NCBI GenBank assembly: GCA_000372785.1
Contig: KB889757.1
Location: 62,001 to 126,000, forward strand
DNA from: a gamma proteobacterium SCGC AB-629-P17
GTDB taxonomy: Bacteria > Pseudomonadota > Gammaproteobacteria > PS1 > Pseudothioglobaceae
Direction: 5' to 3'
Length of the DNA: 64,000 nucleotides
The notes under the pieces are model-generated. The model worked only from the letters and a program-made list of their open reading frames with translations. It was not told where the DNA came from and ran no database searches. Shown piece after piece: positions 15,399-18,191 of the stretch. A program made the translations under genes and the position numbers. Position 1 is the first letter of the stretch; each line of letters opens with the position of its first letter.

Positions 15399-16784
15399 TT
15401 AATACTTATAAGTTTCTGGCTTATATGGACCCTCTTTGGGTGTATTGATGTATTCTGCTTGGGCATCCGTCATCTTTGTAAGAACACCACCAAAGCCACC
15501 AACCATTCCTGCAGCAACCTCCTCGTCGAGTTTCTTGGGTAGAACTTCAACGCTTATGTTGCTTAATTTATCTTCTTCCGGCAGGTTCGCAAATTTTTGA
15601 TCAAACAGATACATTTGAGCTAATACCTGGTTAGCAAAAGAGCCATCCATAACGCGAGAAGGGTGGCCTGTTGCATTACCCAAATTGACTAAGCGACCTT
15701 CAGATAACAAAATCAAATAATCATTTTTGTCAGGAGACCTATAGACTCGGTGGACCTGAGGCTTAACTTCGTCCCATTGCCAGTTATCACGCATGTATTG
15801 GGTATCAATTTCATTGTCGAAGTGACCAATATTACAAACCACCGAACCAGCCTTAAGGGTCTCCAACATAGCTGAATCGCACACATTTATATTTCCAGAA
15901 GCTGTAACTACTAAGTCAGTTGTAGATAACAATTCTTTATTAATACCACCTTTTGATCCAGTATTAATACCATCGTTGTATGGCGAGATTACTTCAAATC
16001 CATCCATACAAGCCTGCATAGCACAGATAGGGTCGATCTCGCTAACCTTAACTATCATTCCTTCCTGACGGAGTGATTGTGAAGACCCTTTGCCAACATC
16101 ACCGTAGCCAATTACTAGAGCTTTTTTACCTGCCATTAAAATATCGGTTCCACGCTTAATAGCATCATTTAAAGAGTGTCTGCAGCCATATTTATTATCA
16201 TTTTTTGATTTTGTGACTGAGTCATTGACATTAATTGCTGGAACCTTAAGTTCGCCATTATCAATCATTTCCAGTAAACGATGTACGCCGGTAGTAGTCT
16301 CTTCACTGATTCCATGAATACTATCGAGCATATCCGGGTATTTTTCATGCAGCATTTGGGTCAAGTCACCGCCATCATCTAAAACCATGTTGGCATCCCA
16401 GGGCTTGTTATTTTGAAGGATAGTTTGTTCGATGCACCATAAAAATTCCTCTTCAGTCTCACCTTTCCAAGCAAAAACTGGTATACCAGCTTCGACCATT
16501 GCGGCCGCTGCATGGTCCTGTGTAGAGAAAATATTACAAGATGACCAGCGAATCTCTGCACCTAATGCAACCAAAGTTTCCATAAGGACTGCTGTTTGAA
16601 TAGTCATATGAATACAGCCCAGTATCTTTGCACCCTTTAAAGGTTTTTGTGCGCTGTATTTATTACGAAGCGCCATTAAAGTGGGCATTTCAGATTCCGC
16701 CAACTCTATCTCTTTACGACCATAGTCAGTCAAATTAATATCAGCAACTTTATAGTCGTTATTATCAATTGTTGAATTACTCAT
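15399..16784 (-). CDS. ahcY: S-adenosylhomocysteine hydrolase
   Basis: AhcY splits S-adenosylhomocysteine (SAH) into homocysteine and adenosine with tightly bound NAD, removing the by-product of SAM-dependent methylation. Visible are [44 protein letters not shown], the NAD-binding [13 protein letters not shown], and the C-terminal [18 protein letters not shown] start it at the ATG at 16784 ([10 protein letters not shown], 461 residues), which has an AAAGGA ribosome-binding site seven bases before it. The frame is open back to 16859, but that extension reads through an SAH riboswitch and is not coding. metK lies directly upstream. Confidence 0.97.
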
Positions 16785-16810
16785 TTTGTTTCCTTTAAAT
16801 TGAAAAAAAT

Positions 16811-16870
16811 GAGCGTCGTTATGAATGCCAAGCCTGCTGGAAAGAAAATCCCAATGCAACGCCCCTTGGC
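16811..16870 (-). ncRNA. SAH riboswitch in the ahcY leader
   Basis: Minus-strand leader with the features of the S-adenosylhomocysteine riboswitch. The 5' element GCCAAGGGGCGTTGCA (16870-16855) pairs GCCAAG with CTTGGC (16832-16827) to form P1. An internal hairpin with TGGGA/TTCCA arms forms P2. The 3' element AACGACGCTC (16820-16811) can pair GGGCGT (16864-16859) with ACGCTC (16816-16811) as the pseudoknot helix. The conserved AGGnGCGtTGCa and AACGnCGCTC blocks match my memory of the class. It sits immediately before ahcY, the gene that destroys SAH. In the known class SAH binding raises expression. The RNA would begin at the predicted start site of the promoter at 16878-16886. Confidence 0.82.
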
Positions 16871-16877
16871 AGAATTC

Positions 16878-16904: not shown

Positions 16905-18038
16905 CTATTTTAGCAGATGAGCACGATCGGTTTTTTCCCAGCTAATTGAATCTTCGGTTCTGCCAAAATGACCATAACTAGCGGTTTGTTGGTAGATTGG
17001 TCTTTTTAAATCCAGCATATCAATCAAACCCTTGGGACGTAAATCGAAATGTTTTCTAATTAATTGTTCAATCTCTTGGTTGGACTTTTTGCCAGTACCA
17101 AAGGTATCAACACTGATGCTAGTTGGTTCTGCAACACCGATTGCATATGATACTTGAATCTCACAACGAGTAGCAAGCCCCGCTGCAACAATATTTTTAG
17201 CAACATAGCGAGTGGCGTAAGCTGCGCTTCTATCAACTTTGGAAGGGTCTTTTCCTGAGAAAGCACCGCCTCCGTGACGAGCCATACCGCCATAGGTGTC
17301 CACAATAATTTTTCTACCTGTTAATCCAGCGTCACCAACTGGACCACCGATTTCGAAGTTACCAGTCGGATTGATGTGATACTGGGTTTCATTTGTTAAC
17401 CATTTTTTCGGTAATATGGGTTTGATGATCTCTTCTAACACCGCTTCCCTAAGATCTGTAAGTGAGATGCCTTTATCATGCTGAGTGGAAAGCACCACAG
17501 CATCAATACCAACAATTTCATTGCCATCATAAATACAAGAGACTTGTGATTTAGCGTCAGGTCTTAGCCATGGAATAGATTCGTTTAATAATAGTTCAGC
17601 TTGACGCCTGACAAGTTGATGGGCAAGCATAATTGGTGCAGGCATAAGCTCTTTGGTTGAATTTTCTGCGTAACCAAACATTAGACCTTGGTCTCCTGCC
17701 CCCTGTTCACGGTTTTTACTCTCATCAACTCCTTGTTTGATGTCCTGAGATTGTTTACCTAGTAGGTTTGATATTGAACAGTTGTGACCATTAAATCCGT
17801 ACTCATCTCTATCATAGCCAATGTCAATAATTGTTTTTCGAACCACATCTTCATAGTCAATTTTTGCACCTGTAGTAATTTCACCAGCCAATACAACCTG
17901 GTTGTCTTTTACCAAGGTTTCAATAGCAACACGAGATTCTCTGTCTTGTGAAAGTGCAGCATCAAGAATGGCATCAGAAATTTGATCGCAAACTTTGTCG
18001 GGATGACCGGCAGAAACGGATTCGGAAGTAAATATCAT
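16905..18038 (-). CDS. metK: S-adenosylmethionine synthetase
   Basis: MetK makes SAM from methionine and ATP in the cytosol. The 377-residue protein shows [18 protein letters not shown] (about residues 9-26), [12 protein letters not shown], the [20 protein letters not shown] block, [19 protein letters not shown] and [15 protein letters not shown]. The length is normal. It has its own promoter (18163-18191), a SAM-II-type aptamer (18104-18160) and an intrinsic terminator (18057-18083) in the leader, so it is probably shut off when SAM is abundant. ahcY follows 120 bases downstream behind a separate promoter and riboswitch. Confidence 0.98.
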
Positions 18039-18056
18039 AGCATAGTCCTAAAAAAT

Positions 18057-18083
18057 AAAAAAAACCTGTCTAAAGCAGGTTTT
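18057..18083 (-). terminator. Intrinsic terminator in the metK leader (riboswitch expression platform)
   Basis: On the minus strand AAAACCTG (18083-18076) pairs with CAGGTTTT (18068-18061) around a seven-base loop, followed by a further U-rich run. It lies 18 bases before the metK ATG, where a normal terminator would be pointless, so it is best read as an attenuator. A CTAAAGC segment at 18102-18096, next to the aptamer tail, is complementary to GCTTTAG (18076-18070) in the terminator and could form the antiterminator. Confidence 0.8.
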
Positions 18084-18103
18084 TTCGGAAAACACCAGCT
18101 TTA

Positions 18104-18160
18104 GCTTGTTTTAGCCACTACTGGTGGCAACGCTAGCAATCGGAACAAATCAGCGTGCAG
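18104..18160 (-). ncRNA. SAM-II-type riboswitch in the metK leader
   Basis: The minus-strand leader starts ACGCTGATTTG (from 18156), then CCGATTGCTAGCGT, and ends GGCTAAAACAAGC (18116-18104). ACGCT (18156-18152) pairs with AGCGT (18134-18130) as P1. The conserved TGATTT loop and the downstream GCTAAA are the hallmarks of the SAM-II class, and TTGTT in the loop can pair with AACAA of the tail as the H-type pseudoknot. Genes controlled by this class belong to methionine and SAM synthesis. The predicted transcription start is at the first base of P1. A terminator follows before metK. Confidence 0.78.
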
Positions 18161-18162
18161 TA

Positions 18163-18191
18163 ATTATAGTCTTTGATTTTATTAATGTAAA
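18163..18191 (-). promoter_or_regulatory. Sigma-70-type promoter of metK
   Basis: Minus-strand TTTACA (18191-18186), a 17-base spacer and TATAAT (18168-18163). The start site falls near 18157, the first base of the SAM-II aptamer. The -35 element begins just past the ccmB stop at 18194. Confidence 0.8.

Follow-up and report, generated by a model that had tools for sequence, protein, structure and literature searches.

The leader of metK, the SAM synthetase gene, in the gammaproteobacterium SCGC AB-629-P17 very probably carries a riboswitch of the SAM-II type. Its form is particular to the lineage, with one additional hairpin (P3), and it would switch metK off in response to SAM. The leader was located on the minus strand of the window, the whole 64,000 nt stretch of contig KB889757.1 that was analysed, and positions are given in window coordinates. 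A broader reading is put forward only tentatively. The aptamer may be a SAM-II/SAM-V hybrid that became fixed in one family with a two-tier platform, a terminator inside a Shine-Dalgarno (SD) helix, and in several lineages this platform may have been rebuilt as purely translational around an unchanging aptamer core.

Layout of the metK leader

The features of the leader and of the genes downstream are listed in Table 1. The first-pass annotation of this DNA had described a promoter, an ACGCT/AGCGT stem (P1), a TGATTT loop, a GCTAAA tail and a terminator before the ATG, and all of these were present on the minus strand, the loop as TGATTTG and the tail as GCTAAAG. Its naming of the gene as metK was borne out by the TIGR01034 match. 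The P3 hairpin (18128-18114) and a helix that would sequester the SD had been overlooked.

Table 1. Features of the metK leader and the adjoining genes, in window coordinates
Feature	Position	Strand	Basis or remark
Promoter -35, TTTACA	18186..18191	-	Consensus scan; genus g1 leaders have equivalent sites
Promoter -10, TATAAT	18163..18168	-	Consensus scan; same place in nearly all relatives
Aptamer	18156-18095	-	About 64 nt
P1 5' strand, ACGCT	18152..18156	-	Pair counts
GATTTG, expected major-groove third strand of the SAM pocket	18146..18151	-	AUUUG invariant (n = 51); role by homology (PMC6061858)
Pseudoknot P2 5' strand, TCCGATTGC	18136..18144	-	Alignment and pair counts
P1 3' strand, AGCGT	18130..18134	-	Pair counts; L058 has compensated AUGCU/AGCAU
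Extra hairpin P3, GCCAC-CAGTA-GTGGC	18114..18128	-	Five of five pairs with two-sided changes in relatives
Tail GCTAAAGCTGG, P2 3' strand and putative antiterminator 5' strand	18095..18105	-	GCUAAAG invariant; complements 18070-18079
GTGTTTTCC, proposed SD-sequestering strand, weak in window	18087..18095	-	Duplex and pairing counts
CCTGCTTTAG, putative antiterminator 3' strand (terminator 5' arm and loop)	18070..18079	-	Motif also in canonical gammaproteobacterial SAM-II leaders
Intrinsic terminator hairpin and U-tract	18058..18086	-	-10.1 kcal/mol
Shine-Dalgarno region, AGGACTATGC	18040..18049	-	Sequence and pairing counts
metK, SAM synthetase	16905..18038	-	TIGR01034, 584 bits
SAH riboswitch between metK and ahcY	16804..16872	-	RF01057, 48.2 bits, over cut-off
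ahcY, adenosylhomocysteinase	15399..16784	-	TIGR00936, 518 bits

The promoter (TTTACA-17-TATAAT) has a 17 nt spacer and matched the consensus at 11 of 12 positions in the scan of the window. The start site predicted 7 nt past the -10 element would coincide with the first base of P1, at 18156. The terminator has 11 bp and a U8 tract and ends 19 nt ahead of the ATG at 18038, with AGGA at 18049-18046 (minus strand) ahead of the same ATG. The leader is directly preceded by ccmB and the downstream order is metK, ahcY. An SAH riboswitch was also found at the metK-ahcY junction in ten relatives whose junction was scanned. For the genome bin from which the window comes, completeness is 77% and contamination 5.4%. 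Contamination is an unlikely explanation of the element because of its synteny and its presence in 51 relatives.

Detection of the element

The first-pass annotation had looked to the Rfam SAM-II model, run with Infernal, for confirmation. No SAM-II match was obtained in the window at the gathering thresholds (36 bits for RF00521, 44 bits for RF01726). RF00521 was not listed there and RF01726, the SAM-II long-loop model, gave 14.6 bits, with the loop and tail aligned correctly and an insert placed where the P3 hairpin sits. Neither model exceeded its cut-off in any of the 83 family genomes. The element fails this literal test, and Rfam misses the lineage, because the variant has diverged and carries P3 in addition; the sub-threshold score is a detection limit and not a biological feature.

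A covariance model (R2) of 23 sequences, all from other genera and hence out-of-sample for the window, scored the metK leader at 82.8 bits (E 3e-18), the runner-up in the window reaching 11.9 bits. The metK-leader element is more than a chance match. With a 51-sequence model it was found in 74 of 83 family genomes, including 47 of the 49 of high quality. One high-quality family genome (G036) has a degenerate metK leader (L054, about 499-558, 13.2 bits), perhaps a SAM-II element in decay or one that has diverged further.

In the class sample, all four family members matched at no less than 79 bits and four non-members matched weakly (26-30 bits). Three of these weak matches are leaders of met genes (metN, metZ and metK), which RF00521 scores at 28-36 bits; the fourth, L075, looks like a chance match. 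Canonical SAM-II leaders of other Gammaproteobacteria were likewise recovered weakly (18-29 bits) by model R2 and a second model, R1. A scan of named genomes returned 52 pattern matches, 50 of which precede metK while the other two run off the available sequence. These came from Candidatus Thioglobus, SUP05, Ruthia, Vesicomyosocius, Thiodubiliella and related records, and the carrier family is that of SUP05/Thioglobus and the clam and mussel symbionts. None of the viral contigs searched matched the element.

Conservation and covariation

metK was found in 86 of 95 related genomes and the leaders were extracted. The element was present in 51 leaders, all with different aptamer sequences. GCUAAAG, AUUUG, GAUUGC and most of P1 were invariant or nearly so in the alignment of these 51 sequences, and P3 was freely variable. 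P1 was paired in 99.2% of cells, with compensated CG to UA and AU to GC changes, and the pseudoknot helix P2 in 97.8% (n = 51 for both). Both pairings, which the first-pass annotation had expected to persist in related metK leaders, are thus retained. Four of the seven P2 pairs never vary and one has a two-sided change; since the P2 core is invariant there is almost no covariation, and the support for this helix comes from conservation more than from covariation. P3 was paired in 94.9% of cells (n = 51) with two-sided changes at each of its five pairs. Double-change cells numbered 70 in total, compared with 20 in shuffles, and slid registers were only 21-48% paired.

The pseudoknot-free minimum-energy fold of the window pairs the P3 region with the tail (CACCAG/CUGGUG). 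This fold was rejected as the active structure because just 10 of 51 leaders pair these two regions and the other helices are conserved.

The counterparts of the SAM pocket (the bulged U, two U-A pairs, the A.A pair and the UUU third strand) were invariant in the 51 sequences. The pocket columns, A11, U12-U14, A21-U23 and U71-A74, were mapped by hand via the description of SAM-V and SAM-II (PMC6061858). SAM is the predicted ligand. A separate SAH riboswitch lies in the same operon, and SAH or methionine might be proposed instead for the metK element. This is very improbable, as the counterparts of the SAM-contacting bases do not vary, the regulated gene makes SAM, and SAM-V, with its nearly identical pocket, discriminates against SAH via the sulfonium charge (PMC6061858).

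Class of the aptamer

The element shares with SAM-II (RF00521, SAM_alpha) its P1, the GAUUUG loop, the UUGC/GCUAAA pseudoknot core and the A-rich linker. The association with methionine and SAM genes and the terminator/antiterminator platform are also common to both, the canonical cases in other Gammaproteobacteria preceding metZ and metK. Unlike RF00521, the element adds P3, falls under the Rfam threshold and has a loop-tail distance of 25-43 nt, whereas the distance from UUGC to GCUAAA was exactly 18 nt in 34 of 35 canonical gammaproteobacterial loci. Because this linker is longer and holds a covarying hairpin, the element is filed, on sequence grounds, as a putative variant of SAM-II that is specific to its lineage and has a P3 like that of SAM-V, and not as a canonical member. 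The GAUUGC loop and GCUAAAgC tail match best to RF01726, and in the Infernal alignment the additional bases of the element are placed as an insert at the same point, although the element scores only 14.6-27.9 bits against the cut-off of 44. This long-loop variant was described from Bacteroidetes and marine sequences (PMC2864571).

P3 is missing from the published SAM-II fold and is present after P1 in SAM-V, and the two pockets are nearly identical (PMC6061858). The presence of P3 would thus favour assignment of the metK element to SAM-V, genuine examples of which occur in the family. RF01826 (SAM-V) was, however, not listed for the window, and none of its matches in the family falls at a metK leader. 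SAM-V also has a longer lower P2 (consensus GUGC/GCAC) and an SD within P2a, whereas the lower P2 of the element is GC/GC, the SAM-II form, and its SD lies about 45 nt downstream of the tail. SAM-V is a most unlikely class for the element and was rejected, the metK leaders having no RF01826 match; the SAM-II-kind assignment is kept.

Other SAM-II and SAM-V elements were also seen. Five Thioglobaceae loci (L157, L158, L159, L160 and L162) carry SAM-V riboswitches (37-51 bits) that directly precede a recurrent protein of 169-176 aa starting MSYQNQS; the two members scanned gave no Pfam match. A genome of the window's genus (G016) has a SAM-II-like aptamer without P3 (L005, 1501-1578, minus strand) that scores 31.1 bits, just below the cut-off, and precedes an O-acetylhomoserine sulfhydrylase gene, so that both forms coexist in one genome. 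At L006 (784-950 and about 1856), L176, L185 and L195-L197, a canonical SAM-II aptamer and terminator come first and a second element resembling SAM-II lies about 95-115 nt further on. This second element, in most cases GATTTAA...ACAACTTGC...GCTAAAGC, receives no Rfam score. These tandem loci precede non-methionine genes (N-formylglutamate amidohydrolase, a MoxR-type AAA ATPase and unknowns), and the second element may be a form of SAM-II that serves a different function.

Terminator and antiterminator

At low SAM, the tail CUAAAGCUGG would pair with CCUGCUUUAG in the 5' arm and loop of the terminator, so that the terminator could not form and metK would be transcribed. Bound SAM would instead keep the tail in the P1/P2 pseudoknot and triplex, so that the terminator would fold and transcription would end before metK. 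The first-pass annotation had proposed an antiterminator between CTAAAGC and GCTTTAG. A pairing of this kind exists, but these 7 bp are too short: the CUAAAGCUGG/CCUGCUUUAG duplex has 9 bp with one U.U mismatch, and CCUGCUUUAG makes up half of the terminator 5' arm plus the loop. The intrinsic terminator and the mutually exclusive antiterminator that characterise a transcription attenuator are both found at sequence level.

A CC-N0-3-CTT motif follows the aptamer in 44 of the 51 leaders (14.6 expected). The motif CNGCYTTWG, of the CUGCUUUAG type, was found after the canonical SAM-II aptamer at 15 of 35 loci in distant Gammaproteobacteria (0.6 expected). At the sole variable position of the antiterminator (tail position 76), pairing was found in 26 of 45 cases against 24.4 expected (p 0.27). 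This covariation is not significant and the antiterminator therefore rests on conserved complementarity. Taken leader by leader, its duplexes reached p <= 0.05 in just 12 of 51.

Conservation by itself is no proof of switching, and the same features could belong to a constitutive promoter and terminator placed around a conserved structure that does not switch. Such an arrangement is highly improbable given the invariant pocket, the tail-terminator complementarity and the relatedness to canonical SAM-II leaders at other methionine genes. The best reading is the arrangement first suggested for this leader, a SAM-II-type aptamer and a terminator/antiterminator platform before metK, with P1 and the pseudoknot kept in 51 relatives and canonical leaders recovered by the models.

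A comparable case is provided by the SAM-II elements of S. meliloti metZ and metA, for which SAM-dependent control of termination or of translation is predicted within one genome (PMC9373788). They differ from the metK element in their genes, in lacking P3 and in having no terminator nested in an SD helix. Cellular SAM levels and SAM-II terminated products in S. meliloti move as a termination model predicts (PMC9373788).

Pairing of the Shine-Dalgarno region

Immediately downstream of the aptamer lies a stretch, UUCUUCUU in most genera and GUGUUUUCC in that of the window, that forms a helix with the SD region around the terminator. Duplexes between matched partners had a mean energy of -8.71 kcal/mol, compared with -7.07 kcal/mol for permuted partners, a difference reached in 0 of 5000 permutations. 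Paired cells exceeded shuffles overall and within each group. Both the permutation and the shuffle tests treat the leaders without phylogeny correction. Positions 1-7 of the helix are paired in about 80-96% of cases in the other genera; in the window the helix is weak, with three consecutive pairs and scattered wobble pairs. Since the helix would enclose the terminator in most relatives, read-through transcripts could also be poorly translated. Termination as the sole control of metK is probably an incomplete account, because most relatives also pair the SD sequence.

A strong terminator is absent from at least nine genus g1 leaders. Six g1 leaders have AAGCUAAAG/CUUUAGCUU in place of the terminator, the tail partner being CUUUAGCUU or UUUAGCUU, and in L015, L020 and L028 AAAUCC pairs with GGAUUU at the SD. 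Some relatives without a strong terminator appear from these pairings to use translational control. The same leaders, together with the SD helix found in most of the others, could mean that the SAM-II-like aptamer acts mainly on translation throughout, the post-aptamer stretch sequestering the SD and the terminator-like hairpin being secondary or decaying. This is unlikely: the window has a weak SD helix but a terminator with 11 pairs and a U8 tract, and the antiterminator complement is retained in 44 of 51 leaders. Control by termination is kept as the preferred reading for the window. The platform has apparently changed between control of transcription and control of translation, with the aptamer itself almost constant.

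Distribution and significance

RF00521 was found in 117 of 369 sampled gammaproteobacterial genomes at E <= 0.001, with 30 over the cut-off. Of the best loci read, the majority lie before metZ-type genes and at least four before metK. SAM-II had been described in the first-pass annotation as mainly alphaproteobacterial, which understates its range in this sample. Sporadic gammaproteobacterial cases were noted in a 2007 survey (PMC2258182), and a 2014 survey recorded SAM_alpha from Rhizobiales and Rhodobacterales only, usually at metY, and listed no metK target for it (PMC4239095). As SAM-II is common in Gammaproteobacteria, its occurrence before metK there is unsurprising in itself. What is surprising is the form with P3, the fact that it is nearly fixed in the family, and the platform with its two layers. 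No report of a Thioglobus or Vesicomyosocius metK element was found in the open literature searched.

MetJ was absent from all 83 family genomes. The element would give metK a SAM regulator in an abundant marine sulfur-oxidising family and in its reduced clam and mussel symbionts, all of them without MetJ. The set of leaders forms a natural series for change of the expression platform under a fixed aptamer. With a SAM-type switch at metK and a SAH switch at ahcY in one cluster, both ends of the SAM cycle are apparently read by RNA.
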